Part shown: one piece after another, positions 23,324 to 49,385 of the stretch
Layout of the letters: every line of letters starts with the position of its first letter
Position numbering within the stretch: the first letter of the stretch is position 1
NCBI GenBank assembly: GCA_029781865.1
Contig: JAKOVW010000005.1
Location: forward strand, 42,059-106,058
Source: Bacteroidota bacterium
Lineage (GTDB): Bacteria; Bacteroidota; Bacteroidia; Chitinophagales; Saprospiraceae
Reading direction: 5' to 3'
DNA length: 64,000 nucleotides
Translations under genes and position numbers: made by a program
Notes under the pieces: model-generated
What the model was told of the DNA's origin: nothing
The model's input: the letters and a program-made list of their open reading frames with translations, nothing else
Databases searched by the model: none

Positions 23324-23866
23324 ATGAAGAGTTTTTTGTCTCAATTGTTGCTTACAGAACATGGCGTTATACTTAGCGCCGAAGACCTGATCACAAGCCT
23401 GGAAGACAGCTGGAAATCCAATCCTCATGAATACCAAAATCAGATCAAGCAGTTGATTTCGTTCTTCAAAATTTATGGCGATGAATATCATCATCAAAAA
23501 GAAGAAGACATCCTATTCCCTGCCATTTACATGAAAAGCGAAATGAGCGGAAACGGAATTGTACAGGAATTAATTGAACAGCATGAATATTTCAGGGATA
23601 TTCTGAATACCATACAATTGGCTCTAGATGTAGAAGATTATGCAAATGCAGAAAAACTGTTAAGGAAATACATCAATGATCTAAAAGATCATATAGCCAT
23701 TGAAAATAATGAATTATTGCCCATGACAGAGAATCTTTTTACCAATGATGAATTGGAGAAGCTCTACTATAGAAGTCTGGATAAAGACAGAATGTTAGGC
23801 CTGGAGAAGAAGGAAGAACTTGTACATTTTATACAAAAATTCCGATTCAATGAGACAGCTCAATGA
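23324..23866 (+). CDS. Hemerythrin-domain protein
   Basis: A 180-residue hemerythrin-like four-helix bundle. The start ATG at 23324 is preferred over a TTG at 23306. Iron ligands are H7x-like residues: EHGVI near the N-terminus, HHQKEEDILFP, EQHEYF and DHIAIENNELLP. Such proteins bind oxygen or nitric oxide at a di-iron site. It is the first gene of the array, next to the paired FNR-like boxes, and overlaps bcrC by 17 bases. It may protect or signal for the oxygen-sensitive benzoyl-CoA reductase; this is inferred from position. Confidence 0.85.
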   Translation: MKSFLSQLLLTEHGVILSAEDLITSLEDSWKSNPHEYQNQIKQLISFFKIYGDEYHHQKEEDILFPAIYMKSEMSGNGIVQELIEQHEYFRDILNTIQLALDVEDYANAEKLLRKYINDLKDHIAIENNELLPMTENLFTNDELEKLYYRSLDKDRMLGLEKKEELVHFIQKFRFNETAQ

Positions 23867-25013
23867 GATATTAGAAGAATGTTCTGTTCAGGCATTTGAT
23901 CTTCAATTTAACAAAGCCAGAAGCTGGAAACAGGAATCGGACGGCCGCGTCCTTGTCGGATATCTACCGATTTATTTTCCGCGGGAAATCGTTCACGCTT
24001 TAAATGGACTTGCAGTAGGAATATTAGGTACTGGTGACCGCAAGCAAATTATCAAAGGGGATGCCTATTATCAATCTTATATCTGCCATCTGCCAAGAGG
24101 AATTGTAGAGATGGCTTTAGACAGCAGTCTATTGGAGTTTGATGGATTTATCTTTCCTGCCATCTGCGATTGTATTCGAAATCTTTCCGGGATGTTCAAA
24201 TTAGCAGACAAAGGCAAATTCCAACGTTACTTTGATTACCCTCAGAATTTCAATCCTACCATTGGGGGTCGTTTTTACCGCCATGAAATTCAAAAAATTA
24301 TCGATGATATTCAATCAATTAACGGCGCAACTCTTGATTTTGAAAAACTCAACCATTCTATTGGTCTATTCAATAAGAACAGACAATTAATCGAAGAGAT
24401 TTACAACATCCGGCAGGAATACCCCTGGAGACTTTCTGCAGTTGACACTTATCACATCCTTCGTGCCGGGTTGGTCATTCCAGTTGAAGAGCACAATAAA
24501 ATTCTTGAAGACGTCATCGCTCATTTGCATGAAGAACGCGGCGAACCTGTTGATAATATCCGCGTAGTCATAACAGGTTCGTTTTGCGAGCAACCTCCTG
24601 TTGGATTGATAAAATCAATAGAAATGGCCGGTTGTTATATAGTTGATGACGATTATATGCTTGGCTCAAGATGGATACAAGGAGATGTCCCTGACAACAC
24701 AGATGATCCCTTAGGAGCATTGGTTAATGCATTTCTTACCCAAAGCACTTTCTCTTCTGCAATATATGATATAGACAATTCCAAAGGCCGAAAATTAGTT
24801 GAACGGGTTAAATCACGTAATGCTGAAGGAGTCATTTTTAGTGCAGCTAGTTTTTGCGACCCCGCTTTGCTTGATAGACCAGATTTGCAAAAGGTTTGTG
24901 ATGCCTCGGGAATTCCCAATATCAATTTTCAATATCATGAAAACACTGGTCAGTTTAAGGTGATCAAGGAGCAGGCAGGAACATTTTCGGATTCTATAAA
25001 ACTTTGGGCTTAA
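23850..25013 (+). CDS. bcrC: Benzoyl-CoA reductase subunit C
   Basis: One of two catalytic subunits of class I ATP-dependent benzoyl-CoA reductase, in the HgdB/D-component family. It binds a [4Fe-4S] cluster and substrate. The start at 23850 gives M-R-Q-L-N-E; a longer frame from 23820 lies inside the upstream gene. Diagnostic segments are VGYLPIYFPREIVHA, GDAYYQSYICHLPRG and FPAICDCIRNLSGMFK, with cysteines conserved as in BcrC of Thauera and BadD. Length about 387 is as expected. It overlaps the hemerythrin gene by 17 bases; bcrB follows after 48 bases. Confidence 0.92.
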   Translation: MRQLNEILEECSVQAFDLQFNKARSWKQESDGRVLVGYLPIYFPREIVHALNGLAVGILGTGDRKQIIKGDAYYQSYICHLPRGIVEMALDSSLLEFDGFIFPAICDCIRNLSGMFKLADKGKFQRYFDYPQNFNPTIGGRFYRHEIQKIIDDIQSINGATLDFEKLNHSIGLFNKNRQLIEEIYNIRQEYPWRLSAVDTYHILRAGLVIPVEEHNKILEDVIAHLHEERGEPVDNIRVVITGSFCEQPPVGLIKSIEMAGCYIVDDDYMLGSRWIQGDVPDNTDDPLGALVNAFLTQSTFSSAIYDIDNSKGRKLVERVKSRNAEGVIFSAASFCDPALLDRPDLQKVCDASGIPNINFQYHENTGQFKVIKEQAGTFSDSIKLWA

Positions 25014-25061
25014 TTAGTAAGTACTCCAATAGATTCAAATGAATTAAAAGCGATCATTATA

Positions 25062-26363
25062 ATGGCAAATCCAAGAGAAGCAATAAAAGAAGACAGCATG
25101 ATTTTGCAAAAAGAAATGCTGGCTAATCTCTTCAAAGAACTGGGCAACACCAAAGAGACCGGAAAAAAGGTAGTGTATACATTTGTTCCCGGCAATCTTA
25201 CGGAGTTGATCCTGTCTTTCGATATGCTTCCGGTTTATCCTGAAATCAATGCCTTGCAGTCCGGCATGCGCAAAAAATCTGCAGCATATATCCGTGAAGC
25301 GGAAAAACTTGGATTCAGCGAAGATGTGTGCACTTATGTTAAGTGCGATATCGGAATGATGTTGAATGGAAATATCGGTCCCACTGGTGAATCCATTCCC
25401 CCACCCGATTTACTTTTATTAAGTTATACCGGCTGCTTTACATTTATGAAATGGTTCGAGAATCTCGAACGACTCTATCCCGGCGTTCCAATTGCCATGT
25501 TACATACTCCTTACCAGGAAGATGGCCAAATCACTTCAGATCAGGTCGAATACATGGTCAAACAATTAAAGGAAGAAGTGATTCCCAAAATGGAAATGGT
25601 GGCAGGGAAAAAATTGGATATGCAGCGATTGTCAAACATGATGTCAAAATCAGCTGAAGCTGAAGATCTTCTTGTGAAGATACTGGAGACTGCAAAAAAC
25701 AAACCCTCCCCGATCGATGCTTATTTTGCTGGTGTATATTACATCGGTCCAATCTTTACTGCATTTCGTGGAACAGATGAGGCTGTCAATTACTATAAGG
25801 AACTTTACAAAGAAGTTGAGCAACGATTAAAACTTGGATTAGGTCCAATCACTCCTGAAGGTGAATTGAAAGAAGAAAAATTCCGTCTTGTTGTTGAAGG
25901 ACCGCCGAATTGGACCAACTTCCGGGAATTCTGGAAAATATTTTACGATATGGGGGCAGTGATTGTAGCTTCATCCTATACCAAAGTCGGAGGTGTATAT
26001 GACCTTGGATTTCGGCATAACCCGAATGAACCCCTGGAAAGCCTTGCAAAGTACTGCATGGGTTGTTATACAAATATGAATTTACCCCAACGCGTAAATT
26101 TTTTAGCAGATTATATTAAAGATTATCAGGCCGACGGCTTCCTGATCAATTCAATAAAAAGTTGTAATTCATTTTCTGCCGGTCAACTGATGATGATGAG
26201 GGAAATTGAAAAAAGAATGGAGGTTCCGGTTGGATTTATTGAAAGTGACCTGGTCGATCCCAGATATTTTTCTTATGCCAACATCAAGAACCGCCTGGAA
26301 TCGTATTTTCAAATGCTTGAGCAACGAAAAATAATAATGACACAGGAAGCGGAAACAGCATAA
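25062..26363 (+). CDS. bcrB: Benzoyl-CoA reductase subunit B
   Basis: Second catalytic subunit of class I benzoyl-CoA reductase, 433 residues, HgdB-like. Conserved features are FVPGNLTELILSFDMLPVYPE near the N-terminus, the cysteine segments VCTYVKCDIGMM, KYCMGCYTNMNLP and IKSCNSFSAGQ, and the DLVDPRYFSYANI C-terminal segment. Together with BcrC it forms the heterodimer where the aromatic ring is reduced. Gene order C-B-A-D is that of Thauera. Stop and next start are separated by 45 bases. Confidence 0.92.
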   Translation: MANPREAIKEDSMILQKEMLANLFKELGNTKETGKKVVYTFVPGNLTELILSFDMLPVYPEINALQSGMRKKSAAYIREAEKLGFSEDVCTYVKCDIGMMLNGNIGPTGESIPPPDLLLLSYTGCFTFMKWFENLERLYPGVPIAMLHTPYQEDGQITSDQVEYMVKQLKEEVIPKMEMVAGKKLDMQRLSNMMSKSAEAEDLLVKILETAKNKPSPIDAYFAGVYYIGPIFTAFRGTDEAVNYYKELYKEVEQRLKLGLGPITPEGELKEEKFRLVVEGPPNWTNFREFWKIFYDMGAVIVASSYTKVGGVYDLGFRHNPNEPLESLAKYCMGCYTNMNLPQRVNFLADYIKDYQADGFLINSIKSCNSFSAGQLMMMREIEKRMEVPVGFIESDLVDPRYFSYANIKNRLESYFQMLEQRKIIMTQEAETA

Positions 26364-26408: not shown

Positions 26409-27830
26409 ATGACTAAATATTATCTCGGTGTTGATTTAGGATCTACAACTTCCAAAGCAGTTATCATTAATGACCAGGATGAAATCATTGGCCGGGGAAT
26501 AACCAATACAAGAGCGAATTACTCCATTGCCGCAGATATTGCCAAAGATGAAGCGATTTACAATGCTCGATTTTCCATTTTGAAAAAGAGGCTGGAAAAT
26601 GAAATCAATACCACTCCGGAATATGAACGGTACATTATGGATCTGGAGAGTGTGTTTCAATATGAACAGTTTAAAGTCAGACTGGATAAACTGGGGGATG
26701 AATTGGTCAAAACTTGCAAAGCCTTTTTTAAAGATGAAAAAACACAAGAAACGATTCTCAATCATCTAAGGACTATTCGCAAGACTTTTAAACCCGTAAT
26801 CAAAAGAGATTACTTGTACAATAACTTAGGTTCCAAAAATCAATTTTTCCGTGATATCGTATCTGAGAAATACAATGAAGAAGTCAATAAGCTGGATATT
26901 TCGCTATTCGAACCTTTGATGACGGTTTGGGATAAAAGCATCAGTCCTGCTGAAAACCAACTGATCATTTTTGACTTTAAAGAACTCATTCATAAAGCTA
27001 TGGATGATCTTCATGAAAAATATGCAAACCCTCCTGAAATTAATGACCACACACACGTAAATTTTGAAGACGAATTAAAATTACTAAAAGGCAACTTCAA
27101 ACAAATCTCAGAATCTCTCCGCGAACACATTGATGCCATCTCCGATTTAGAATTTGAAATTACCAATATGACCGGAACAGGGTACGGCAGGGCATTATTA
27201 CCTTTTCCACAAAATTGCATTCGCTCTGAAATACTTTGTCATGCTTTTGGTGCACATGCCGTATTTCCTAAAACCAGATCGGTACTGGACATTGGCGGAC
27301 AAGATACCAAAGCCATTCAGGTAGATAAATATGGATTGGTAACCAGCTTTCAGATGAATGATCGCTGCGCTGCAGGATGTGGAAGGTATCTTGGCTATAT
27401 AGCTGATGAGATGAGCATCTCACTGAATGAACTCGGACCCATGGCATTGCTAGCAGAAAAGGAAGTCAATATATGTTCGACCTGTACGGTATTTGCAGGA
27501 GCGGAATTGAGAGAATTGACGAATCTCGGAGAGAAACGCGAAGATATATTAGGTGGCTTACACAAAGCAATTATAATGCGCGCCATGTCTTTAATTGCCA
27601 GATCAGGAGGCATATTCAATGAATTTACATTTACCGGCGGCGTAGCAAGGAATCCTGCAGTTATAAAATATTTATCACAGCTGGTCAAAGAAAATTATGG
27701 GGATGACATAAAAATCAACATACACTCAGATTCAATTTTTATGGGTGCTTTAGGTGGCGCCATGTTTGCCAGGAGAAATTTAAATTTAGAATTACCCGCT
27801 ACCAAACAAGAAGTTGCTGAAATGAATTAG
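26409..27830 (+). CDS. bcrA: Benzoyl-CoA reductase subunit A (ATPase)
   Basis: Electron-activating ASKHA ATPase subunit of class I benzoyl-CoA reductase, 473 residues. Phosphate 1 loop YYLGVDLGSTTSKAVII starts the protein. The centre has TGTGYGRALLPFPQN, LDIGGQDTKAIQ and the cluster motifs NDRCAAGCGRYLG and CSTCTVFAGAEL, whose cysteines bridge the [4Fe-4S] cluster between the two ATPase subunits. The end has FTFTGGVARNPAV and the SIFMGALGGAMFA segment. A helical insertion of about 180 residues after the first loop is typical of BcrA/BadF. It pairs with BcrD. Confidence 0.93.
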   Translation: MTKYYLGVDLGSTTSKAVIINDQDEIIGRGITNTRANYSIAADIAKDEAIYNARFSILKKRLENEINTTPEYERYIMDLESVFQYEQFKVRLDKLGDELVKTCKAFFKDEKTQETILNHLRTIRKTFKPVIKRDYLYNNLGSKNQFFRDIVSEKYNEEVNKLDISLFEPLMTVWDKSISPAENQLIIFDFKELIHKAMDDLHEKYANPPEINDHTHVNFEDELKLLKGNFKQISESLREHIDAISDLEFEITNMTGTGYGRALLPFPQNCIRSEILCHAFGAHAVFPKTRSVLDIGGQDTKAIQVDKYGLVTSFQMNDRCAAGCGRYLGYIADEMSISLNELGPMALLAEKEVNICSTCTVFAGAELRELTNLGEKREDILGGLHKAIIMRAMSLIARSGGIFNEFTFTGGVARNPAVIKYLSQLVKENYGDDIKINIHSDSIFMGALGGAMFARRNLNLELPATKQEVAEMN

Positions 27831-27855
27831 TTCAACCAAATGTAATATCCGGAAA

Positions 27856-28695
27856 ATGAAATCTACACTTTTAACGATGGGCATTGATATCGGTAGCAAT
27901 TATATCAAGCTGGTGTTGATGGATTATAACGAGAAACCGGCACTATTGGATTCCCAAACAGAAAAAATCCGGAAAAGAAATCCAACACAGGTTGCGGATG
28001 AAATGATTCAGCTCATGTTACAAAAGCATGAATTGCAATATGAGGATATTGCATATCTCGCAACAACAGGCGAAGGAGATTTGGTTAAAAGAAAACGCGG
28101 ACATTTTTATGGAATGACGACTCATGCCAAAGGCGCCAACTATTTCTTTCCTGATGCCAGAAGCGTTGTTGACCTGGGTGCATTATATGTGCGTGCCATA
28201 AAAATTTCACCGGATGCACGAGTCCAGGATTACAAGATGACCGGTCAATGCGCTTCCGGCTCCGGCCAATTCATTGAAAACATTTCGCGTTACCTGGGAT
28301 TGTCCATTGAGGAAGTGGGTGAAATATCCATGCAGGCAGATAATCCTGAAGTATCCTCCGGAATCTGTGCCGTTCTGGCAGAAACAGATGTAATCAATAT
28401 GGTTTCCCGTGGCATTTCCACGCCAAACATCATTAAAGGAATCCATTTATCAATTGCAAACCGGATCATTAAACTGATGAGTTCACTCAAGGCAGAATCG
28501 CCGATTGTACTGACCGGAGGAATGGCCCTGAATAAAGGCATGCTGCAGGCTCTGGAAGATCAACTTAAAGAATCCGGAAAAAAATTTGAAATAAAAACGA
28601 CTCCGCAAGCTGCTTATGCAGGCGCTATCGGAGCTGCATTATGGGGTGGATACCGGCACAATAAACTAAAAGAAAAAAAAACAATGGCCGTATAA
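27856..28695 (+). CDS. bcrD: Benzoyl-CoA reductase subunit D (ATPase)
   Basis: Second ASKHA ATPase subunit, 279 residues, the smaller partner of BcrA as in other class I enzymes. Shows GIDIGSNYIKLVL near the N-terminus, ATTGEGD in place of the usual TGYGR, VVDLGALYVRAI, GQCASGSGQFIENI, SGICAVLAETDV and VLTGGMALNKG. The two cysteines that share the [4Fe-4S] cluster are present (in QCASG and GICAV). Coupled with a gap of 25 bases to bcrA, it completes the four-subunit set; ATP hydrolysis drives electron transfer from reduced ferredoxin. Confidence 0.92.
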   Translation: MKSTLLTMGIDIGSNYIKLVLMDYNEKPALLDSQTEKIRKRNPTQVADEMIQLMLQKHELQYEDIAYLATTGEGDLVKRKRGHFYGMTTHAKGANYFFPDARSVVDLGALYVRAIKISPDARVQDYKMTGQCASGSGQFIENISRYLGLSIEEVGEISMQADNPEVSSGICAVLAETDVINMVSRGISTPNIIKGIHLSIANRIIKLMSSLKAESPIVLTGGMALNKGMLQALEDQLKESGKKFEIKTTPQAAYAGAIGAALWGGYRHNKLKEKKTMAV

Positions 28696-28705: not shown

Positions 28706-30466
28706 ATGCAAAAACTTGAATCCAATATTGCATTAGGCGAAATCATACCGAACATAGCCACCTTATTGCAACGCAACGTCCGATTGTTTGAGAACAAAAC
28801 CGTATATAGCGAAAACAAATCCGGACAATATGAAGGGATCAGCTGGAGGCAATTTTATAACAACATTCTAACGATTGCCTTTAACTTAAAAAGACATGGA
28901 TTTAACACGGGCGATAAAATGGTAATCTATTCTCCAAATCGCCTTGAGATGCTGGAACTGGAGTTAGCCTTAATGGCATCGGGTGGAATTGCCGTTCCCA
29001 TTTTTGCTTACTTCTACAAAGAAACCGCACAACTCCTGATCAATCATTGCGAAGCAAAGTTTATTGCCGTGGCCGGAGAGCTCCAATTAGGTAGAATTCC
29101 GGATGTCCATGTTAAATCCATTTTTGTATTTGATCATTTCGACAAACCTCAATACAAAAACCAACATTCGTTTAATGAACTATTGCAAACAAAACCAGAT
29201 GAATCCTTTTCATTCTGCTTTGATGAAGCACCGGAATCAATTTGCTTAAACATGTATACATCCGGAACAATGGGCATTCCAAAATGTGTACAACTCTCTC
29301 ACAAAAATATTTTATCACAGCAGGCTGCATTGGCAAAACTATGGCGACTGGATGAGACGGATCGCTTCCTGTCTTATTTGCCCTGGCATCACAGTTTTGG
29401 TGGCATCTTCGAATTATTCTCTGCATTGTACAACGGAGCTGAACTATCCCTTGAATCCGGATATGGAAAAGATCCGGTCACCATTATGGAAAATTGGAAA
29501 ATGATTCAGCCCACCGTATTTTTTAGTGTACCGAAAGTGTATCAGGCCTTAGTTGAATTGACAAAAAGGGATAAAAATGCAGAAGCTTTATTTTTTCATT
29601 CGAAACTGAAATTTATTTTCACAGCAGCTGCTTCCTTACCACAAAAATTATCTGATGAATTTGAAAAAAGAAATATACCTGTTATTGAAGGTTGGGGGCT
29701 CACAGAGACATCGCCTTGCTGCACATTGACAGATCCTGCCAAAAAAAGATTATCCGGAATAGTTGGCTATCCCATTCCCGGTGTTAGTATACGACTTTCC
29801 GATGACGGCGAAATTCAGGTAAAAGGTCCTAATGTCATGAAATGCTATTTCAAAAACGATGAGGCCAATGCAGGATTGTTTACGGAAGACGGTTGGTTCT
29901 GCACCGGAGACATAGGAGAAATCACCGACAACGGATTAAAACTGATCACGCGCAAAGACAGAATTTTTAAACTTTCAAATGGTGAAAAAGTAATTCCATC
30001 TGATCTGGAAAAATTAATTGAATTAAAGTGTCACTATATCTCATTCGCAATGGTGGTTGGACATGGGGAAGAATACCCGGTAGCCCTTTTGTTTCCCAAT
30101 AAAAAACTAATGGATCAACCGGATTATGCCATATCCCCTGAAGAAGGTTGTTACTGTCCAAGGGATTTGAATGAACTCGGCAAATGTTTGCGGGGCTGTC
30201 TGCATGATGCCAACTGCGGTATCGGACAAAAATTTGCAAAAATCAAATCAGCGATGATCATTGATGACGAATTATCCTTTGATAAAGGCACTTTAACCTC
30301 CTCAATGAAAGTAGCACCAAAAAATGTATTAAATGCATATAAAGCACATCTGGAAAATATTTACGGAGCCCAAAACCCAATAGACAATGAAGTTTATATT
30401 ATTCAACTGGAAGATTTTGAGAAAATGCCGGGAAGAAAAACGCAATTAGATCATGTACAATCTTGA
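28706..30466 (+). CDS. AMP-forming acyl-CoA ligase with Cys-rich segment
   Basis: A 586-residue ANL-superfamily ligase, closer in type to long-chain acyl-CoA synthetases than to benzoate-CoA ligases. Motifs: YTSGTMGIPK for ATP, WGLTETSP, TGDIGEI and the LITRKDRIFKLSNGEKV hinge, with the C-terminal Lys region SSMKV. Uniquely, residues 482-504 contain five cysteines (C-Y-C-x9-C-x3-C-x5-C), an unusual insertion that could bind a metal or cluster. It lies 10 bases after bcrD. Substrate is unknown: aromatic acid, cyclohexane carboxylate or a dicarboxylic acid are all possible. It overlaps the next gene by 14 bases. Confidence 0.85.
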   Translation: MQKLESNIALGEIIPNIATLLQRNVRLFENKTVYSENKSGQYEGISWRQFYNNILTIAFNLKRHGFNTGDKMVIYSPNRLEMLELELALMASGGIAVPIFAYFYKETAQLLINHCEAKFIAVAGELQLGRIPDVHVKSIFVFDHFDKPQYKNQHSFNELLQTKPDESFSFCFDEAPESICLNMYTSGTMGIPKCVQLSHKNILSQQAALAKLWRLDETDRFLSYLPWHHSFGGIFELFSALYNGAELSLESGYGKDPVTIMENWKMIQPTVFFSVPKVYQALVELTKRDKNAEALFFHSKLKFIFTAAASLPQKLSDEFEKRNIPVIEGWGLTETSPCCTLTDPAKKRLSGIVGYPIPGVSIRLSDDGEIQVKGPNVMKCYFKNDEANAGLFTEDGWFCTGDIGEITDNGLKLITRKDRIFKLSNGEKVIPSDLEKLIELKCHYISFAMVVGHGEEYPVALLFPNKKLMDQPDYAISPEEGCYCPRDLNELGKCLRGCLHDANCGIGQKFAKIKSAMIIDDELSFDKGTLTSSMKVAPKNVLNAYKAHLENIYGAQNPIDNEVYIIQLEDFEKMPGRKTQLDHVQS

Positions 30467-31667
30467 TTCAACCAAATTATTAAAAAATCTGATGAAAGAT
30501 TATTTCACAGATTTTCAACACGCAAAGAAAATTGCGTGGTGCACGAGTGTTGGTCCTGCTGAATTGTTGCGTGCGTTTGGCTTCCAGGTTTATTTTCCGG
30601 AAAATCATGGAGCGTTACTTGGTGCGACCAGAATGGCAGGAGATTATATTCCTTCCACAATCAATTTGGGATATTCCGGAGACGTATGCTCTTATCTTAC
30701 CAGTGACATAGGTGCATACCTGAACAAACAAACTCCTTTATTACAACATTATGGATTGGCAGGTATTCCTAAACCTGATCTGATCGTCTACAATACTAAT
30801 CAATGCCGGGAAGTACAGGAATGGTTTAATTATTATGCTACTGAATTTAAATGTCCGGTAATCGGAATATTTCCTCCACGCCATATAGATGAAATAACAA
30901 AAGCTGAAATACAGGTAGTCAGTGAACAATTCAAAGCCATGATTCCGGTCTGCGAACAAATCAGTGGAAATAAATTTGACCTGGATCTATTCAAATCAAC
31001 CCTTGGCTTAAGCAAGCAGGCAGCTACCTTATGGAAGGATGTACTGGCAACGGCCAAAAATTCACCATCCCCTTTAAGCTTTTTTGATGCGACCATTCAT
31101 ATGGGACCAATTGTAGTCCTGAGAGGCACTGTTTCTGCAAACCACTACTATCAAAACTTACTCAATGAATTAAACGAAAATGTCCGAAATAAAAGGAGTA
31201 TGGTCAAAGAAGAAAACAGTAGAATCTTTTGGGATGGAATGCCCATCTGGGGAAAACTAAGAACACTATCAGATTTGTTTATACAAAACAATTCATCCGT
31301 AGTTGCTTCAACGTATTGCAACAGCTGGGTTTTTGATTCATTTGATGAGAATGATCCTTTTACTTCTTCCGCTAAAGCATATACAGAGATTTTCATCAAC
31401 AGAAGCGAAGGAGCAAAGATGAGGATACTGAAAGAGATGGTTGATGAATTCAGAATTGATGGAATCCTATTTCATGATGCCAAAACCTGTTTCAATAACT
31501 CCAATTCGAGATTCGGACTCCCCTTGCGATTTTATAAAGAATTTGGAATTCCCGTACTTGTCATCGAAGGTGACTTATGCGATTTACGCTTTTATTCAGA
31601 AGGTCAATCCACGACAAAAATCGAAACATTTATCGAACAACTTGAAATGCATAAAGTAATGAATTGA
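30453..31667 (+). CDS. HgdB/BcrB-like 2-hydroxyacyl-CoA dehydratase-type subunit
   Basis: A 404-residue member of the 2-hydroxyacyl-CoA dehydratase and benzoyl-CoA reductase D-component family. Conserved cysteines occur near the N-terminus (K-K-I-A-W-C-T and D-V-C-S-Y), in NTNQCREV and in the C-terminal segments DAKTCFNNSNSRF and EGDLCDLRFYSE. It lacks an adjacent second family subunit that dehydratases (A/B, C/B) normally have; BcrC and BcrB are separate. It overlaps the ligase by 14 bases and is followed after 1 base by an activator fusion. The partner and substrate are unknown. It may act with the fusion as a radical reductase or dehydratase. Confidence 0.75.
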   Translation: MYNLDSTKLLKNLMKDYFTDFQHAKKIAWCTSVGPAELLRAFGFQVYFPENHGALLGATRMAGDYIPSTINLGYSGDVCSYLTSDIGAYLNKQTPLLQHYGLAGIPKPDLIVYNTNQCREVQEWFNYYATEFKCPVIGIFPPRHIDEITKAEIQVVSEQFKAMIPVCEQISGNKFDLDLFKSTLGLSKQAATLWKDVLATAKNSPSPLSFFDATIHMGPIVVLRGTVSANHYYQNLLNELNENVRNKRSMVKEENSRIFWDGMPIWGKLRTLSDLFIQNNSSVVASTYCNSWVFDSFDENDPFTSSAKAYTEIFINRSEGAKMRILKEMVDEFRIDGILFHDAKTCFNNSNSRFGLPLRFYKEFGIPVLVIEGDLCDLRFYSEGQSTTKIETFIEQLEMHKVMN

Positions 31668-39797: not shown

Positions 39798-40414
39798 GCA
39801 TTCAAGATGATATATCCGTAATTATTCTGTCTTCAGGAAATTCAACCAGAATGAATACCCCAAAGGCATTCCTGATGTTTGACAACAGCAAAACATTCCT
39901 GGAAAAAATCATTGAAACTTATATTGAGAGTGGCATCCTAAACATCATTCTGGTTGTAAATCCCGGTTTGTATGGACGGGCAAGTTCAATGCTATCAAAA
40001 TACAAGGTAAACAGCAACGTAAAGTTGATTCCAAACCGCTTTAGTGACCTGGGCAGATTTTATTCCATACGATTGGGGCTTTTTAATTGTGACACACCAC
40101 ATACGTTCCTACAAAATATAGACAATCCCTTTATAAGCGCTGACCTCATTGAAGAAATGACGCGATTATCTTCCAATTCAAATTATGTTGTACCGGCATA
40201 CAAAAATCAAGAGGCTCACCCTATTTTGATATCTAAAAAAATAATAGACTCCATTGTAACTACCAAAGGAGTAAATTATCATCTTAAAACTATGCTGCAA
40301 ACATTTCCTAAATCAGTATTGGACTGGAATGATAAAAATATTTTATTGAATATTAATACAGTTGATGAATACCGAAAATATGTAATCGAATGCTCAACAT
40401 TTATCAACTTTTAA
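39794..40414 (+). CDS. MobA/MocA-like nucleotidyltransferase
   Basis: A 206-residue nucleotidyltransferase of the MobA-like type: VIILSSGNSTRMNTPKAF with the Arg-Met and Lys positions of the GxxSRM-PK motif (here S-G-N-S-T-R-M), and LQNIDNPFISADLIEE for the metal site. In this context it should attach cytidine to molybdopterin (MocA role), as xanthine-oxidase-family enzymes require. It overlaps the previous gene by 4 bases and xdhC-like by 25, and the Mo enzyme genes follow. Confidence 0.82.
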   Translation: MSIQDDISVIILSSGNSTRMNTPKAFLMFDNSKTFLEKIIETYIESGILNIILVVNPGLYGRASSMLSKYKVNSNVKLIPNRFSDLGRFYSIRLGLFNCDTPHTFLQNIDNPFISADLIEEMTRLSSNSNYVVPAYKNQEAHPILISKKIIDSIVTTKGVNYHLKTMLQTFPKSVLDWNDKNILLNINTVDEYRKYVIECSTFINF

Positions 40415-41980: not shown

Positions 41981-44797
41981 ATGGACAAATTAAAAATAAC
42001 GGTTAATCAAAATGAACACGAATTGTTGATTGGTGTGCACGACACACTTTCTTCAGTGCTGCGAAAACATTTAGGATTAACAGGAACAAAAATCGGATGC
42101 GAACAAGGAAGCTGCGGAGCATGTACTGTATTGCTAAATGATCAACCGGTTCTTAGCTGTATCACCCCTGCATTGCGATGCCACAATGCTAACATTACAA
42201 CCATTGAAGGACTCGCTCAACAAGGTGAATTGGAGTTACTTCAAATCAAATTTGTAGAGAAAGGAGCAATTCAATGCGGTTTTTGTACCTCAGGAATGGT
42301 ACTTACTTCTTATGACTTCATCAAAAAAAATCCAAATGCCACAGTTGATGAAATAAAATTGGCCTTATCCGGAAATTTGTGCCGTTGCACAGGCTATAAA
42401 AAAATTATTGAGGCGGTTTCTGAAACGATTCATATCCAGAATCATCCCGGCTATCAAACCTTACCAAATAAAACATCAAAAGATATTGTTGGTGTTGGCA
42501 GACCTTATATCGAAGCCACTAAAAAAGTGCGTGGCTCTGCGGAGTTTGCAGATGACATTCAAATGAAAAATGTTTTACATTGTACCTTTTTAAGAAGTCC
42601 TTATCCGCATGCAACCATTGAGGCTATAGATAAAACTGCGGCAGAATCCCTGAACGGTGTAAAATATGTACTAACCGGAGAAGAACTGCCAATTCAATTT
42701 GGAGTCTTACCCATATCTCAGGATGAAACTGCTCTTGCCATTCATAAAGTCCGATATGCAGGTGAGATTGTCGCTGCAGTTGCTGCCGAATCAGAAGAAT
42801 TGGCGATAAAAGCATGCGAGTTAATTAAAGTACGTTACAAGCCTTTGCATCCATTTTTAGAAATTGATGATTCCCTTAATGATATTGGCACGAATGAAAA
42901 AATTCATTCGCATACTAAATTCAATAATAATATTCATAAAAAAGCGGAATTGCGCTTTGGCGATCAACAACTGGCTTTGTCAAATTCAGATGTACGTAGC
43001 AAAATGAATTTTGAATTCCGCGGAGTCAATCATGGATTTACCGAACCACATGCCGCCATTGCTTATTGGGATGATAATGGATTAACTATTCATACAGCAA
43101 CACAGGTCCCCCATTATTTGCACAGGGCACTGGCGAAAGTACTCGAAGTCCCATTATCAAAAGTGCGCGTTATAAAACCATATATCGGAGGTGGATTTGG
43201 CGGCAAAAGCGACCCCTTTCCTCATGAGATTATCATTTCCTTTCTGGCTAAAAAAACCGGACGGCCTGTTAAGGTTCGCTTAAACCGTGAAGAAGTATTT
43301 CTATGCAATCACGGCAGGCATCCTTCTGTTATCACCATGGAGATCGGGGCCACTAATGAAGGAAAATTAACTGCAATAGATACCGGGATAGCTATCGACG
43401 GTGGAGCATACGGTAGTTTTGGAGTCGTGACTTCATACTATAACGGAGTCTTGTTGCAAGCTCCTTATGAAATAGACAACTTAGGATTTAAAACATTGCG
43501 CGTATATACAAACAAACCACAAAGTGGCGCCATGCGGGGACATGGAGCTGTTAATTCCAGATTCGCAATGGAAACACTGATGGACGAACTTGCAATTAAA
43601 CTAAACATTGATCCCTGTGAGTTGAGGTTAAAAAATTTCATGACATCCAATGTCTTTACGATCGGCAAATTCAGGATCACTTCCAATGGAAGCAGAGAAT
43701 CGCTTTTAAAAGTAATGGAGCAATCTGGATGGAAAGAAAGACATGGCAATCTTTCCTTTGGTCATGGACTTGGTGTTGGCTGCGGATTTTTCATCAGTGG
43801 AAGTGCATTGCCAATTATCTGGAATGAACTTCCACAATCCACTGTTCATCTGAAAGTAGATTTTGATGGGCGGATTTTAATTAGTTCGGGATCGAGTGAC
43901 ATAGGGCAAGGCAGCGACACCATGTTGGCTATGATTGTTGCCGAAGTTCTTTCCATATCTATGGACAAAATTTATGTATTGGCCGGTGACACTTTAATGA
44001 CCCCGGTCGATCTCGGATCCTATTCCAGCAGAGTTACTTTTATGGCGGGCAATGCTGCAAAAACAGCTGCTGAAAATTTAAAACACGAAATAGTCACAGC
44101 CATTGCTAAAAAATTCAATATAGAAGCTGCTGAATTAAATTGCTACGATGAAAAAATTGTTTCCAACAATAAAACACTTGAACTTAGCTGGAATGAAGCA
44201 ATTGATTGCGTTACTGCCAATCGCGGAGCAATTACAGTTAGCGGGAAATACATTTCACCAAAACTGGGTGGTGACTTCAAAGGAGCCGGTGCCGGATTAA
44301 GTCCATCGTATAGTTTCGGTGCTGTAATCGCTGAGGTAAAAGTAGATGTTGAAACAGGTTTGGTTAAAGTAATAAATATCTGGGGAGCCCATGATTGCGG
44401 AAAAGCAATCAATCCTTTGGCCGTTGAAGGCCAACTCGAAGGATCCTGGCACATGGGAATGGGACAGGCCCTCAGTGAACAAATGACTTATTTTAATGGA
44501 TTACTTCTGAATAGCAACTTCCTCAATTACAAAATTCCAACCTCTATGGATACTCCTCCGATTTATACCAATATTATTGAATCGGAAGATCCGGAGGGAC
44601 CATTTGGAGCCAAGGAATGTGGTGAAGGTGCTTTACATCCTGTCATTCCGGCCATTGCAAATGCCATCTACAATGCTATAGGCGTTCGCATAACTAAATT
44701 GCCAATTAACCCGGAGGATATTTTAAATCAATTAAATCAGACAGCAACAACCACTATGATAAAGGAAAATTTCAGTATTGAATCCGAAATCCAATGA
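41981..44797 (+). CDS. 4-hydroxybenzoyl-CoA reductase, fused gamma and alpha subunits
   Basis: A 938-residue fusion in the xanthine oxidase family. N-terminal part (about 1-155, HcrC-like) has two [2Fe-2S] sites: GCEQGSCGACTVL with a later Cys in VLSC, and CGFCTSGM with LCRCTGYKKI. The rest (about 165-938, HcrA-like) is the molybdopterin subunit: FRSPYPHATIE-like LRSPYPHA, GGGFGGKSDPF, AMRGHGAVNSRF and active-site Glu in KECGEGALHPVIPAIANA. Together with the next gene this forms an enzyme removing the para-hydroxyl group of 4-hydroxybenzoyl-CoA. In Thauera these are separate subunits. The name HcrCA is a proposed label. Confidence 0.85.
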   Translation: MDKLKITVNQNEHELLIGVHDTLSSVLRKHLGLTGTKIGCEQGSCGACTVLLNDQPVLSCITPALRCHNANITTIEGLAQQGELELLQIKFVEKGAIQCGFCTSGMVLTSYDFIKKNPNATVDEIKLALSGNLCRCTGYKKIIEAVSETIHIQNHPGYQTLPNKTSKDIVGVGRPYIEATKKVRGSAEFADDIQMKNVLHCTFLRSPYPHATIEAIDKTAAESLNGVKYVLTGEELPIQFGVLPISQDETALAIHKVRYAGEIVAAVAAESEELAIKACELIKVRYKPLHPFLEIDDSLNDIGTNEKIHSHTKFNNNIHKKAELRFGDQQLALSNSDVRSKMNFEFRGVNHGFTEPHAAIAYWDDNGLTIHTATQVPHYLHRALAKVLEVPLSKVRVIKPYIGGGFGGKSDPFPHEIIISFLAKKTGRPVKVRLNREEVFLCNHGRHPSVITMEIGATNEGKLTAIDTGIAIDGGAYGSFGVVTSYYNGVLLQAPYEIDNLGFKTLRVYTNKPQSGAMRGHGAVNSRFAMETLMDELAIKLNIDPCELRLKNFMTSNVFTIGKFRITSNGSRESLLKVMEQSGWKERHGNLSFGHGLGVGCGFFISGSALPIIWNELPQSTVHLKVDFDGRILISSGSSDIGQGSDTMLAMIVAEVLSISMDKIYVLAGDTLMTPVDLGSYSSRVTFMAGNAAKTAAENLKHEIVTAIAKKFNIEAAELNCYDEKIVSNNKTLELSWNEAIDCVTANRGAITVSGKYISPKLGGDFKGAGAGLSPSYSFGAVIAEVKVDVETGLVKVINIWGAHDCGKAINPLAVEGQLEGSWHMGMGQALSEQMTYFNGLLLNSNFLNYKIPTSMDTPPIYTNIIESEDPEGPFGAKECGEGALHPVIPAIANAIYNAIGVRITKLPINPEDILNQLNQTATTTMIKENFSIESEIQ

Positions 44798-45735
44798 TTG
44801 AAGAAAAAAGATATTTGCAACCCCGGTCGATCGCAGAAACAATTGCCATGGCTGATGCCCAACAATCTGATTTTCGTTTTATAGCCGGAGGTACTGATTT
44901 AATGGTGAATAAATTCCAGGAAAATGAAAATTCTTCCTGCCTGATTGATTTATTCGGAGTAGAAGAATTAAAAGAAATGACAAGCGATGAAAGTTTTCTT
45001 TACATTGGTGCACTAACAACGTTAGACGAATTAAAAAAACATCCTCTTATCGTACAGCAATTCAAGGTATTGATAGAAGCGGCAGAAGCAGTTGCAACTC
45101 CTGTAATCAGAAAGACAGCCACTTTAGGCGGAAACATCCTCTGTGAAAACAGATGCATTTTTTATAACCAGTCAAAATGGTGGCGTGATGCTGTTGGTAA
45201 TTGTCTGAAATGCGAGGGCAACATCTGCATTGCCACCGGCAGTAAAAAGCATTGCTATTCGGAATTCGTATCCGATACGGCTATTGCTTTGATCAGCATG
45301 GATGCCATGATTGAATTCGTTGATCACAACGGATCACATAAAATAGCCTTACATAAAATATTCTCAGGAGACGGAGTGCATCCGGTAAATTTAAATAAAT
45401 CAAGTTTGATAAAATCGATCATTCTACCCTTGAATCAAAATTTCAAATCCGTTTTTTATAAACTAAGATTAAGAGAAAGCATGGATTTTACTTCACTGAC
45501 TACTGTTGTAACAAAAAACAAAGAAGGTAAATGGAATATAGTCCTGGGCGGAGTGGACCCCAAACCCGTTCTTATCCATGGGAACAAAGAAAGTGATCAC
45601 GCTGAATGGATCCAGCAGGCACTCAAAAATTCGAGAGCAATAGATAATGAAGTTTTCTCGAGAAAATACAGAAGAAAAATGATTCAGGTTTACTTAAAAC
45701 GGAGTTTCGACATTATTGAAAAAACGCAATACTAA
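44794..45735 (+). CDS. hcrB: 4-hydroxybenzoyl-CoA reductase beta (FAD) subunit
   Basis: A 313-residue FAD subunit. FAD-binding region FRFIAGGTDLMVN and TLGGNILCENR are visible. Residues C121, C137, C145 and C154 (spacing x15, x7, x8) lie in a loop with NQSKWWRDAVGNC, as in HcrB, where such cysteines bind the extra [4Fe-4S] cluster that distinguishes 4-hydroxybenzoyl-CoA reductase from other xanthine oxidase relatives. This is the strongest evidence that the Mo enzyme is Hcr rather than a general dehydrogenase. The start overlaps the upstream stop by 4 bases. Confidence 0.9.
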   Translation: MIEEKRYLQPRSIAETIAMADAQQSDFRFIAGGTDLMVNKFQENENSSCLIDLFGVEELKEMTSDESFLYIGALTTLDELKKHPLIVQQFKVLIEAAEAVATPVIRKTATLGGNILCENRCIFYNQSKWWRDAVGNCLKCEGNICIATGSKKHCYSEFVSDTAIALISMDAMIEFVDHNGSHKIALHKIFSGDGVHPVNLNKSSLIKSIILPLNQNFKSVFYKLRLRESMDFTSLTTVVTKNKEGKWNIVLGGVDPKPVLIHGNKESDHAEWIQQALKNSRAIDNEVFSRKYRRKMIQVYLKRSFDIIEKTQY

Positions 45736-45812: not shown

Positions 45813-48800
45813 ATGGAAACCGTAATGCTTCAAAAAGATACAGAGCTTGAAAATATCCAATTCAAACAAGAGACTATTATCGATGGGAATGAAGCTGCCG
45901 CATACATCGCCTATAAATGCAGTGAAGTTTGCGCGATTTATCCGATTACCCCATCATCTGCAATGGGAGAATGGGCTGATGAATGGTCATCTGAAGGCCG
46001 GAAAAATATATTTGGCGATATTCCAACAGTCATTGAAATGCAAAGCGAAGCAGGCGCTGCAGGCGCCTTGCATGGAGCTATACAAGGCGGAGTGCTCGCT
46101 ACTACTTTTACCTGTTCTCAGGGATTGTTATTAATGATACCGAATATGTTTAAACTGGCTGGTGAACTTTCCCCGGCTGTATTCCATATTGCTGCAAGAG
46201 CATTGGCAACACATGCGCTTTCTATCTTCGGTGATCACTCCGACGTGATGGCTGTTCGCGCTACCGGATTCGCCATGTTATTTGGCAACAATGCTCAGGA
46301 AGCACATGATATGGCTTTAATTGCTCATGCTACTGCTTTAAAATCAAGAATTCCATTTCTAAATGTTTTTGATGGATTCCGCACATCTCATGAATTAACC
46401 CGTGTACATATCATTCCGGACGAAGTAATTAAATCAATGATTGATTTAAGATCATTAATCGAATTTAGAAAAAGATCGCTTACCCCGGATCATCCTGTCA
46501 TTCGTGGTACGGCACAAAATCCGGATGTCTTTTTTCAAAGTCGCGAAGCTTCAAATTTATATTATGAGAATGTGCCTTCCATTGTGCAGGAATTAATGGA
46601 AAAATTTCATCAACATACCGGAAGATCCTATGCTCCATTTGAATACCATGGTTCACCTGTCGCAAAACATATTATTGTTGTCATGGGCTCCGCATGCGGC
46701 GCTGTACGCGAAATGGTAGATTATTTAAACAGCACCGGAGAGGAAGTAGGATATATTACGGTCCGTTTGTTTCGTCCTTTTTCTGTAGATCAATTCATTC
46801 AATGTATTCCATCCACGGTGAACCGAATTACCGTGCTCGATCGTTGCAAAGAACCCGGAAGCATTGGAGAACCTTTGTATATGGATGTTGTCAACGCCAT
46901 GAATGAAGCATGGCCTTACTCGATTCCTAAAATAACAGGAGGCAGATATGGTTTGGCTTCAAAAGAATTTACTCCTGCTATGGTCAAAGCGATTTTTGAT
47001 GAGATGGATAAAGGGAAACCAGCAAATCATTTTACCATAGGAATTCACGATGACGTTACCAACCGAAGCCTGGCCTGGGATCCTTCATTGTCATTGGAAG
47101 GACAGCATAAATTCAGAGGAATATTTTATGGCCTTGGAGCTGATGGCACCGTGAGCGCGAATAAAAATTCCATTAAATTAATTGGTGAACTCACAGATTA
47201 TTATGTACAGGGCTATTTTGTTTATGACTCAAAAAAATCAGGATCACTTACCGTTTCTCATCTTCGCTTTGGAAATAAAGCCATTCATTCCACTTATCTG
47301 ATTGACTCAGCTAATTTCATTGCTTGCCACCATTTCCGTTATTTGGAAAAATATGAAATACTGAAATATGCAGAAGAAGGAGCTACTTTTCTATTAAATA
47401 CTCCATACGATTCAACTGAAGTCTGGCAACATCTACCGGAATCTATTCAATCCGAAATTATTCGTAAAAAATTAAAATTTTTTGTGGTCAATGCATCACA
47501 AGTCGCCCATCAAACCGGAATGGGTTCAAAAATCAATACCATTCTTCAAACTTGTTTTTTTTCTATCTCAGGCATTTTGCCGGAACACGAAGCTGTCTCC
47601 CATATCAAAGAAACCATACGCAACTCATATTCTAAAAAAGGTGAAAAGGTAGTTCTCAAAAATTTTGAAGCTGTAGATCAGGCCTTAAAGAGTCTACGCC
47701 AAATTGATTATTCAGGCTACCCTGCCGCCCATTTTGAAACCCATTCCATCATGCCTGAGAAAGCGCCGGAATTTGTAAAACATGTGATTGGAAAAATAAT
47801 TGCCGGTCATGGAGACGAGTTGCCGGTCAGTTGCTTTCCGGTAGACGGAACATATCCTACATCGACTTCACAATGGGAAAAACGAAATATCGCAGAACTC
47901 ATACCTGTATGGGATGAAGAGTTGTGTTCACAATGTGGCAAATGTTTTATCATCTGTCCGCATGCTGCGATCCGTTGCAAAATTTATGATAAATCCTTAT
48001 TGAGCGAAGCGCCGACCACCTTTAAACATACAAACCCAATTGGCAAAGAATTCAACAAGGAAACAGAAGCATACACGCTGCAAGTATCGGTAGAAGATTG
48101 TACGGGATGTAAACTTTGTGTGGAATATTGCCCTGTGGAAAGCAAATCAACTCCGGGACATAAAGCAATAAATATGGCTGACCCTATTGAATTGAAAGAA
48201 CCCGAAAAAGTCAATTGGGATTATTTCCTTTCCCTTCCTGAAATTGACCGGAATCGGGTAAATTTGCAATCTGTAAAAGGTACACAATTCTTACAACCCC
48301 TGTTTGAATTTTCTGGTGCCTGTTCCGGCTGTGGTGAAACCCCTTATCTTAAATTACTAACACAACTCTATGGAGATCGTATGCTCGTTGCCAATGCAAC
48401 CGGTTGTTCATCGATTTTCGGCGCAAACCTACCCACGACTCCATGGACTGTAAATCATGAAGGATTAGGACCCGCATGGGCCAACTCCCTGTTTGAGGAT
48501 AATGCAGAATTTGGATTGGGTCTTAAACTTGCATCTGACAAAATGTATGAAAAAGCAGTTTCATTATTACTCGAATTGAAAGAGGAAGTCGGTCCAGAGC
48601 TAACCAATGATCTTTTGAATAATTCAGACAATTCAGAAAATGCAATTGCTCAAATGCGTAAAACTATTTTTAGCCTTAAATCCATTTTACGCAAAATAAA
48701 TACTGAAGCTTCACGCAATTTATTGTTAATAGCAGATTCACTGGTGAAAAAATCAATATGGATAATTGGAGGAGATGGATGGGCGTACGACATTGGATTC

Positions 48801-49385
48801 AGCGGACTTGATCATGTCTTATCCACCGGTGAAAATGTAAACATTTTTGTTTTGGATACAGAGGTATATTCCAATACCGGAGGACAGAAATCAAAATCAA
48901 CTCCTTTAGGTGCTTGTGCAAAATTTGCAATAAAAGGAAAAGCAACTTCCAAAAAGAATCTTGCTATGCAGGCCATTGCACATGGAGGCGCTTATGTTGC
49001 TCAAATTGCACTAGGCGCGAATGATGCTCATGCAATCCGCATAATTCGCGAAGCTGAAGCTTTTCCCGGTACGTCGATTATCATAGCATATAGCCATTGT
49101 ATATCTCATGGTTATGACATGATGTATGGAGCCGCTCAACAAAACAATGCCGTCAAATCGGGTTATTGGCCCTTATTCCATTTTAATCCATTAAAACCAA
49201 AAGGAGAGCGATTCATACTTGACTCGAAAGATCCCAGCCTGGCCGTATCCGAATTCCTGGTCAACGAAAACCGCTTCAGTGCAATTCATGTGAATGATCC
49301 TGATTTGCCACATGAACTTCTGGACAAAGTACAATCCGAAATAGACCTTAAATGGGAACGCCTAATGGCTTTAAAGACACTTTAA
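45813..49385 (+). CDS. nifJ: Pyruvate:ferredoxin (flavodoxin) oxidoreductase
   Basis: A 1190-residue single-chain PFOR. Domains: YPITPSSAMGEWAD (about 42-55) and QSEAGAAGALHGA; the SRIPFLNVFDGFRTSHE segment; two ferredoxin-type [4Fe-4S] sites CSQCGKCFIICPHAA and CTGCKLCVEYCP; a proximal cluster in FSGACSGCGETPY; and the TPP-binding GGDGWAYDIGFSGLDH and LDTEVYSNTGGQ. It oxidises pyruvate to acetyl-CoA and reduces ferredoxin, so it is a good electron source for benzoyl-CoA reductase, and pyruvate is a product of both lyases encoded upstream. It ends the array; the gap from hcrB is 77 bases. Confidence 0.95.
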   Translation: METVMLQKDTELENIQFKQETIIDGNEAAAYIAYKCSEVCAIYPITPSSAMGEWADEWSSEGRKNIFGDIPTVIEMQSEAGAAGALHGAIQGGVLATTFTCSQGLLLMIPNMFKLAGELSPAVFHIAARALATHALSIFGDHSDVMAVRATGFAMLFGNNAQEAHDMALIAHATALKSRIPFLNVFDGFRTSHELTRVHIIPDEVIKSMIDLRSLIEFRKRSLTPDHPVIRGTAQNPDVFFQSREASNLYYENVPSIVQELMEKFHQHTGRSYAPFEYHGSPVAKHIIVVMGSACGAVREMVDYLNSTGEEVGYITVRLFRPFSVDQFIQCIPSTVNRITVLDRCKEPGSIGEPLYMDVVNAMNEAWPYSIPKITGGRYGLASKEFTPAMVKAIFDEMDKGKPANHFTIGIHDDVTNRSLAWDPSLSLEGQHKFRGIFYGLGADGTVSANKNSIKLIGELTDYYVQGYFVYDSKKSGSLTVSHLRFGNKAIHSTYLIDSANFIACHHFRYLEKYEILKYAEEGATFLLNTPYDSTEVWQHLPESIQSEIIRKKLKFFVVNASQVAHQTGMGSKINTILQTCFFSISGILPEHEAVSHIKETIRNSYSKKGEKVVLKNFEAVDQALKSLRQIDYSGYPAAHFETHSIMPEKAPEFVKHVIGKIIAGHGDELPVSCFPVDGTYPTSTSQWEKRNIAELIPVWDEELCSQCGKCFIICPHAAIRCKIYDKSLLSEAPTTFKHTNPIGKEFNKETEAYTLQVSVEDCTGCKLCVEYCPVESKSTPGHKAINMADPIELKEPEKVNWDYFLSLPEIDRNRVNLQSVKGTQFLQPLFEFSGACSGCGETPYLKLLTQLYGDRMLVANATGCSSIFGANLPTTPWTVNHEGLGPAWANSLFEDNAEFGLGLKLASDKMYEKAVSLLLELKEEVGPELTNDLLNNSDNSENAIAQMRKTIFSLKSILRKINTEASRNLLLIADSLVKKSIWIIGGDGWAYDIGFSGLDHVLSTGENVNIFVLDTEVYSNTGGQKSKSTPLGACAKFAIKGKATSKKNLAMQAIAHGGAYVAQIALGANDAHAIRIIREAEAFPGTSIIIAYSHCISHGYDMMYGAAQQNNAVKSGYWPLFHFNPLKPKGERFILDSKDPSLAVSEFLVNENRFSAIHVNDPDLPHELLDKVQSEIDLKWERLMALKTL

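Follow-up and report, generated by a model that had tools for sequence, protein, structure and literature searches.

Class I benzoyl-CoA reductase is described, in the available portions of two sources, as a heterotetramer encoded in an operon (PMC7701123; PMC11971306). In this study, we report the analysis of a 64,000-nucleotide stretch of a Bacteroidota genome assembly of the Saprospiraceae (GCA_029781865.1, contig JAKOVW010000005.1, positions 42,059 to 106,058), hereafter the window, which carries the genes of such a reductase in a 26-kb array (23324-49385). We consider it somewhat more probable than its alternatives taken together (about 0.55) that this array joins the class I benzoyl-CoA pathway to an entry module which would feed it with aromatic 2-oxo and 2-hydroxy acids from tyrosine or phenylalanine. 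The families are known and their conserved combination is new; within it, HgdX, an alpha-type 2-hydroxyacyl-CoA dehydratase subunit, stands alone and lacks a partner that defines its family.

The class I pathway of Thauera aromatica is similar to the array in that bcrCBAD is accompanied by dch, had and oah, and BcrB, BcrC, BcrD, Had and Oah of the window score over the curated cut-offs of their models. It differs from the array in the Bacteroidota host of the latter, its single-chain pyruvate:ferredoxin oxidoreductase (PFOR) and the dehydratase module inside it; Thauera has an oxoglutarate:ferredoxin oxidoreductase in place of PFOR. The HadBC-HadI system and the phenyllactyl-CoA dehydratase of Clostridium sporogenes, a 2-hydroxyacyl-CoA dehydratase with an activase, share with the window an alpha-type subunit with three cysteines, a serine and a glutamate, as well as the activase, whereas in the window no beta subunit was found, the activase is fused to a dehydrogenase and there is a link to ring reduction. 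Known 4-hydroxybenzoyl-CoA reductase is comparable in the four-cysteine insert of its beta subunit and is the best model for both alpha and beta, but here gamma and alpha form one chain and the scores lie under the curated cut-offs. The degradation of p-coumarate and phenylalanine in Rhodopseudomonas, Thauera and Aromatoleum leads to the same end products, 4-hydroxybenzoyl-CoA or benzoyl-CoA, via coumarate itself or phenylacetate; dehydration of an aryl-lactyl-CoA is a feature proposed for the array and not for those routes. Finally, bcrABCD has been found in metagenome-assembled genomes (MAGs) of Krumholzibacteriota (PMC10936416), which also places class I bcr outside Proteobacteria and in the wider Fibrobacterota-Chlorobiota-Bacteroidota (FCB) group; that case concerns another phylum, and the available text of the report does not mention a dehydratase module.

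Ring-Reduction and Ring-Opening Genes

All coordinates are positions of the whole window. Scores in bits are given against the curated cut-off of the NCBIfam model or, for Pfam, as domain scores against the cut-off. The array comprises 19 genes, all on the forward strand; the first encodes a hemerythrin-domain protein and the last PFOR. Intergenic distances range from −38 to +77 bases, except for one of −116 at the thiolase, which becomes an overlap of 17 bases when the thiolase start is set at that of its homologues. Pfam assignments agreed with the NCBIfam calls, and the gene order is conserved in many related loci. The bcrC-bcrB-bcrA-bcrD, dch, had, oah, thiolase and beta-oxidation fusion genes which an earlier annotation, made without database searches (the sequence-only reading), had located here were recovered at the same place and strand, with overlaps or short gaps; HgdX, the dehydrogenase-activase fusion and the cysteine-rich lid of the ligase had not been named in it. 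The genes for ring reduction, ring opening and beta-oxidation are:

23850-25013, +, BcrC, benzoyl-CoA reductase subunit C, from the first ATG of its frame (TIGR02263, 454.9 over 421.2)
25062-26363, +, BcrB, active-site subunit (TIGR02260, 694.9 over 486.6)
26409-27830, +, BcrA, ATPase subunit (best model TIGR02259, 434.6, under 578; PF01869, 219.7 over 31.5)
27856-28695, +, BcrD, ATPase subunit (TIGR02261, 316.5 over 312.9)
33512-34774, +, beta-ketothiolase, longest frame from 33413 (TIGR01930, 382.7 over 240.6)
34771-35835, +, Had (TIGR03201, 426.3 over 338.7)
35848-36966, +, Oah (TIGR03200, 567.1 over 464.5)
37010-37783, +, Dch, cyclohexa-1,5-dienecarbonyl-CoA hydratase, longest frame from 36953 (best model TIGR03189, 225.9, under 292.5)
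37794-39797, +, fusion of 3-hydroxyacyl-CoA dehydrogenase and enoyl-CoA hydratase (PF02737, PF00725 and PF00378 over cut-off)

The thiolase start was chosen from its homologues, which align from residue 32-34, and the homologues of Dch align from about residue 20. BZD models gave 78 bits for BcrB and 88 bits for BcrC. Relatives were collected by a scan of GTDB genomes with BcrB, the best 80 of 197 stretches being kept. C90, C125 and C368 of BcrB are kept in all 83 aligned rows, and C89, C116, C256, C272 and C346 of BcrC in 77 of 77, with C360 in 15 of 16. By analogy with BzdN, in which six cysteines serve a double-cubane cluster, the six of BcrC may be cluster ligands; the cluster types of benzoyl-CoA reductases are treated in PMC11971306 (available portion). 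In nine loci (L006, 14667-15812, and eight others) an open reading frame (ORF) of about 380 residues with a Rossmann-like start lies near bcrA and bcrD and had no NCBIfam match at 1e-10.

The Putative Entry Module

Three genes form the putative entry module:

28706-30466, +, AMP-forming acyl- or aryl-CoA ligase with a cysteine-rich C-terminal lid (PF00501, 223.1; PF23562, 43.9)
30453-31667, +, HgdX, alpha-type 2-hydroxyacyl-CoA dehydratase subunit without a beta partner (PF06050, 197.4)
31669-33528, +, fusion of a ketopantoate-reductase-like 2-hydroxyacid dehydrogenase (residues ~1-330; TIGR00745, 159 over 141) and a dehydratase activase (~345-595; TIGR00241, 170 over 125)

The nearest solved structure to HgdX is HadB, both by sequence and by predicted fold, and the active-site serine, glutamate and three cysteines (S32, E50, C79, C118 and C346) are kept in 54 of 54 rows. 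In the dehydrogenase, GxGxxG (G13, G15, G18), presumably the NAD(P) motif, and K196, N200 and E278, which we take to be the catalytic lysine, asparagine and glutamate, are kept in every row that covers the position (53 or 54 rows). Of 51 loci or regions in which the dehydrogenase gene is whole, 38 have it fused to the activase and 13 have two separate proteins. The fusion had 712 matches in a large protein set; among the matches listed, the activase domain was present in 120 of 120 and those named by organism belong to Bacteroidota, Ignavibacteria or a soil metagenome. Public annotation currently calls relatives of the module '2-dehydropantoate 2-reductase' or 'hypothetical protein.'

The HGD-D genes were counted in 25 genomes, 24 of them with bcr, and exactly three were present in 23 of these 24, the identity of the three as BcrB, BcrC and HgdX being checked by position in G059 and G294 only. 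Therefore, HgdX probably acts with itself, as a homodimer, or with BcrC. The remaining bcr-positive genome, G400, has five such genes, and G160, without bcr, has four. The bcr locus of G400 (L046) is adjoined on the opposite strand by a second, divergent BcrA/B/C/D-like set (21-44% identity). G160 carries a HgdX relative with 64% identity (L099, 16723-17922) beside unrelated genes.

Distribution and Gene Histories

The titles of the 80 relatives name Bacteroidota in 71 cases, Chlorobiota in four, Ignavibacteria or Ignavibacteriales in two, and an unnamed bacterium, a Competibacteraceae and an Armatimonadetes in one each. All are titled as MAGs, with groundwater, lake, palsa and bog among the sources mentioned. 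The record titled Competibacteraceae (L019, JACSSC010000026.1; guanine plus cytosine (G+C) content 0.42) comes from a genome of the class to which 13 of the Bacteroidota loci belong; therefore the title is probably wrong, the genome being misnamed or a mixed bin. The one titled Armatimonadetes (L021, JACPDT010000275.1; G+C 0.54) has bcrCBAD without HgdX and represents a transfer or a bin error.

Two genome samples were searched, and their rates are sample figures, neither being a natural prevalence. The first sample covered the window's phylum with 395 genomes, of which 371 have a completeness of 90% or more; BcrB was over cut-off in three, the window's own genome included, while G160 had a HgdX-like match alone. 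Among 395 genomes of the class of G409, BcrB was over cut-off in 50, and G584, in which it is split over two contigs, brings the number to 51. The different rates are probably due to the second collection being richer in MAGs. A HgdX-like match (153-189 bits) was present in all 51 bcrB-positive genomes of the class sample vs. one (G702) of the 344 others. The sequence-only reading had proposed that the locus would extend anaerobic degradation of aromatics to Bacteroidota. The array is indeed present in the phylum; the window is not a unique case, given those 51 genomes, and public records already label BcrB as benzoyl-CoA reductase in Bacteroidota MAGs.

Co-occurrence was scored in the 59 of the 80 loci with at least 8 kb downstream of bcrB. 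HgdX was found in 47, the dehydrogenase in 49, a third activase in 44 and the cysteine-rich lid in 47, and HgdX, dehydrogenase and lid stood together in 45. An AMP-forming ligase was present in 32 and an ADP-forming one in 23 (in L042 this is a protein of 30% identity encoded outside the array). When the whole genomes of the 12 loci without a nearby HgdX were searched, it was found elsewhere in 11. Pairwise distances were correlated over the 42 loci having all parts. The correlation coefficient (r) was 0.88-0.95 within BcrC, BcrB, BcrA and BcrD and 0.91 for dehydrogenase vs. activase; for HgdX it was 0.70 with the dehydrogenase, 0.68 with the activase and 0.49-0.55 with the Bcr subunits (BcrC, 0.54). 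Therefore, the dehydratase group coheres and is shared with bcr everywhere, with a history that is partly its own.

The Ligase and Its Cysteine-Rich Lid

The lid motif of the ligase consists of C442, C482-x-C484-P and C494-x3-C498, and a metal site is possible to judge from these residues. In an alignment of 55 rows, from which loci with cut genes were excluded, four of the cysteines never vary and C484 is kept in 53. In 17 of the 55 rows the lid is a separate protein of 134-176 amino acids, and an ADP-forming acyl-CoA synthetase is present in the array of all 17; the lone lid directly follows HgdX in 15 of these loci and precedes the synthetase in two (L038, L040). In L006 the ligase is cut at residue 520 beside an ADP-forming ligase, which looks like a half-way state of replacement. 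The synthetase takes the place of the ligase in about two out of five related loci, an exchange to be expected since the role of both would be to activate the acid.

Among the 1802 ORFs of the 80 loci, 51 have the motif, and every one of these is the ligase or a lone lid; the motif is absent from the ORFs of at least 350 amino acids at the three other ligase places of the window's genome. In the phylum sample, the lid was found in the three genomes with BcrB, with no match in the 392 without BcrB over cut-off. In a large protein set the lone lid matched 76 short proteins, and those named by organism were Bacteroidota. At E 1e-100, 29 of the 395 genomes of the class sample have the full ligase, and all of them belong to the 51 with BcrB.

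Since the lone lid persists with an ADP-forming ligase, its motif is confined to ligase or lid and none was found in BcrB-less genomes of the phylum sample, it was attractive to consider it an obligatory stand-in for the missing beta subunit. This idea was rejected: in five loci (L063, L068, L069, L071, L080) no ORF of at least 60 amino acids in the array has the motif, the rest of these genomes not being searched, and lid distances follow neither Bcr nor HgdX (r −0.04 to 0.20; HgdX, 0.17). Two matches to the lid pattern lie in ORFs of L069 outside the array.

The absence of a benzoate-CoA ligase of the usual type, which the sequence-only reading had remarked in the window, extends to the 99.2% complete genome, where no protein exceeded the cut-off of TIGR02262 (375.3); the best reached 244.8 and the array ligase 81.6.

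4-Hydroxybenzoyl-CoA Reductase and PFOR

The downstream part of the array encodes a molybdenum reductase with maturation genes, a short-chain dehydrogenase and PFOR:

39794-40414, +, MocA-like molybdenum cofactor nucleotidyltransferase (TIGR03310, 98.6, under 186.5; PF12804, 78.4 over 27)
40390-41244, +, XdhC-like maturation factor (PF13478, 118.2 over 29.7)
41207-41944, +, short-chain dehydrogenase, adjoining bcr in many loci (PF13561, 217.7 over 27)
41981-44797, +, 4-hydroxybenzoyl-CoA reductase, gamma and alpha fused (TIGR03194, 821.4, under 994.6; next model 546)
44794-45735, +, 4-hydroxybenzoyl-CoA reductase beta with four-cysteine insert (TIGR03195, 208, under 404.6; next model 108)
45813-49385, +, PFOR (TIGR02176, 1694.3 over 911.4)

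The 4-hydroxybenzoyl-CoA reductase model is the best match for the HcrA (alpha) and HcrB (beta) parts, though under cut-off. The HcrC (gamma) part reached 160 of 258 bits, and its model ranks only third for that part. The insert of the beta subunit, which we take to be the mark of this enzyme, has C121, C137, C145 and C154 invariant in 22 of 22 aligned rows, window included. In L006, L030, L051, L074 and L078, a U32 protein (TrhP/UbiU-like) is encoded near the short-chain dehydrogenase and 4-hydroxybenzoyl-CoA reductase genes. PFOR is the likely electron source of the array.

Proposed Pathway and Its Alternatives

A 2-oxoacid reductase, an activase, an alpha-type dehydratase and a ligase are the clostridial tool set that converts aryl-lactate to aryl-acrylate. 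The array holds a set of this type together with beta-oxidation enzymes, Hcr and Bcr, and therefore a single pathway from phenylpyruvate to ring opening is the simplest reading. Its substrates, step directions and electron route are predicted from the gene families. The dehydrogenase half of the fusion would reduce (4-hydroxy)phenylpyruvate to an (R)-aryl-lactate, and the ligase, AMP-forming or, in about two fifths of loci, ADP-forming, would convert it to the CoA ester. HgdX, charged with an electron by the ATP-driven activase half of the fusion, would dehydrate the aryl-lactyl-CoA to (4-hydroxy)cinnamoyl-CoA and water, from which the hydratase-dehydrogenase fusion and the thiolase would cleave acetyl-CoA, leaving (4-hydroxy)benzoyl-CoA. 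The molybdenum reductase would then remove the para-hydroxyl group to give benzoyl-CoA, whose ring BcrCBAD would reduce with electrons passed from PFOR via ferredoxin. Dch, Had and Oah would open the ring, and the chain would be finished by the beta-oxidation enzymes of the array and an acyl-CoA dehydrogenase encoded elsewhere in the genome. That no usual benzoate-CoA ligase was found is explained if entry runs via aryl-lactyl-CoA to (4-hydroxy)benzoyl-CoA.

For the acyl-CoA dehydrogenase there is a candidate. Such a gene lies beside hcr in five related loci, with glutaryl-CoA dehydrogenase as its best model, under cut-off (276.5 of 470), and a 69% identical relative is encoded on contig C10 of the window's genome. 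The glutaryl-CoA dehydrogenase that the sequence-only reading had noted as missing from the window may be this gene; the C10 copy scores 236 with that model vs. 258 with acryloyl-CoA reductase, both under cut-off. Two lyases lie 2.4-5.3 kb upstream of the array, the tyrosine phenol-lyase at 2.4 kb, and hint at a connection with aromatic amino acids in this genome:

18021-19448, +, tryptophanase-family beta-eliminating lyase (NF009709, 683.6 over 285; under the equivalog cut-offs of TnaA and tyrosine phenol-lyase)
19542-20927, +, tyrosine phenol-lyase (TIGR02618, 751.3 over 720.7)

It must be noted that several observations weigh against this pathway. Neither tyrosine phenol-lyase nor tryptophanase occurs near bcr in any of the 59 related loci, and PFOR lies inside only two of them, beside hcr in L030 and L034, a count limited by the locus ends. 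The curated cut-offs are not reached by BcrA, Dch or any of the three Hcr parts, and the ligase fold does not point specifically to aryl acids. The association is not strict, as a HgdX-like protein occurs in two genomes that lack bcrB (G160, G702) and L021, the sole case of 16 genomes tested, has bcrCBAD without HgdX; moreover, the distances of HgdX, dehydrogenase and activase follow Bcr weakly (r 0.35-0.55). No beta-subunit candidate for HgdX was found in the window's genome, which has three HGD-D genes, and 2-hydroxyacyl-CoA dehydratase is described, in the available part of PMC11574389, as a heterodimer of alpha and beta, the activase reducing the cluster of the beta subunit.

The sequence-only reading had considered the array as a class I benzoyl-CoA pathway, which stands for the ring-reducing part and falls short as a description of the whole, since the array holds more than that pathway. 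The strongest alternative, although unlikely at about one chance in five, keeps closest to that reading: the array would serve benzoate and 4-hydroxybenzoate only, the ligase being an unusual benzoate- or 4-hydroxybenzoate-CoA ligase and HgdX with the dehydrogenase-activase a separate 2-hydroxy acid route sharing the operon. It would account for the different trees of Bcr and the dehydratase group, for the position of the dehydrogenase apart from HgdX within the array in L063, L069 and L071, and for the fact that the ligase matches, among others, benzoate-CoA ligase chimeras as well as 4-coumarate- and feruloyl-CoA ligases. However, a separate route does not explain why HgdX accompanies bcrB in 51 of 51 genomes of the class sample, with its gene between ligase and thiolase in many loci, and the array ligase attains less than a quarter of the benzoate-CoA ligase cut-off.

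Less probable still is that HgdX and the activase act on a non-aromatic 2-hydroxyacyl-CoA, for example 2-hydroxyglutaryl-CoA, giving glutaconyl-CoA, an intermediate of the lower pathway. The nearest solved relative acts on 2-hydroxyisocaproyl-CoA, and glutaconyl-CoA is an intermediate of glutaryl-CoA oxidation, both of which speak for such a substrate, but the 4-hydroxybenzoyl-CoA reductase would be left without a role and so would the bond of HgdX with bcr, because the benzoyl-CoA pathway needs no such entry. We consider it improbable that HgdX and the activase constitute, instead of a dehydratase, a further reductase whose substrate would be an aromatic or alicyclic CoA ester.

Host Genome and Neighboring Genes

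It is very improbable that the contig of the array was misassembled or entered a Bacteroidota bin from elsewhere: the genome is in 93 contigs and its 16S gene was not found, but it is 99.24% complete with 0.55% contamination, G+C is even across the window (0.34-0.41), and two genomes of the same phylum in one contig each (G059, G294) carry the array, which together with relatives mostly named Bacteroidota indicates that it is no stray contig. The search of other Bacteroidota genomes that the sequence-only reading had suggested thus revealed the array in these two and in the related loci. Its suggested phylogeny was built for BcrB, and in it the window groups with support among Bacteroidota, including a Saprospiraceae MAG. 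This tree is midpoint-rooted, covers 46 of 83 rows and has no proteobacterial row, and hence the origin of the array is not readable from it; plasmid records, in which a proteobacterial Bcr outgroup was sought, gave relatives of only 21.8-25.8% identity.

As to the genome features formerly taken to indicate Bacteroidota, the type IX sorting domain was confirmed (PF18962, 31.7 bits over 27, at 52932-53234), whereas the promoter argument fails, as TTG-N18-23-TAnnTTTG occurs 10 times on both window strands vs. 11.9 expected from 20 first-order Markov sequences. The sorting domain is the tail of a 1995-amino acid surface protein (52932-58919, −) with ice-binding-like, HYR and C-type lectin domains. 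Shortly before the start of the window (L101, 7269-10731), there are genes for a cbb3 oxidase, with CcoN and CcoO fused and followed by CcoP. Two further COX1-family genes occur elsewhere in the genome, one of them aa3-like and under cut-off, and therefore the host is probably facultative.

The array is headed by one further gene:

23324-23866, +, hemerythrin-domain protein (PF01814, 62.9 over 25.3)

A DUF2249-ScdA_N-hemerythrin protein of the Fe-S repair type is encoded nearby (16128-17087, −). Between the lyases and the array lies a 6-pyruvoyl-tetrahydropterin-synthase-family gene (22536-22973, +), and a TPR-CHAT protein of 1038 amino acids is encoded at 59919-63035 (−).

Implications

We found no description of the array or its module in Bacteroidota in the full-text literature searched, whose scope excluded most subscription journals and all preprints, and to our knowledge there is no tested example of anaerobic breakage of the benzene ring in this phylum. 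The wider proposal, put forward tentatively and a little short of an even chance, is that many Bacteroidota oxidize tyrosine and phenylalanine under anoxic conditions via aryl-lactyl- and aryl-acryloyl-CoA into class I ring reduction. The route would rely on a radical dehydratase that works as a single subunit after loss of its beta partner, and its activase would be joined in one chain to the dehydrogenase that produces the substrate. A new five-cysteine metal-binding domain would reside in the ligase lid and survive as a protein of its own wherever another ligase takes over. If this holds, a phylum common in the environment would join the anoxic mineralizers of aromatic rings, the likely substrate being derived from protein and not from pollutants. 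The dehydratases of amino acid fermentation would be linked to the benzoyl-CoA pathway, a radical dehydratase would work without the electron-storing beta subunit, and genes now annotated as a 2-dehydropantoate reductase or as hypothetical would gain a testable role.

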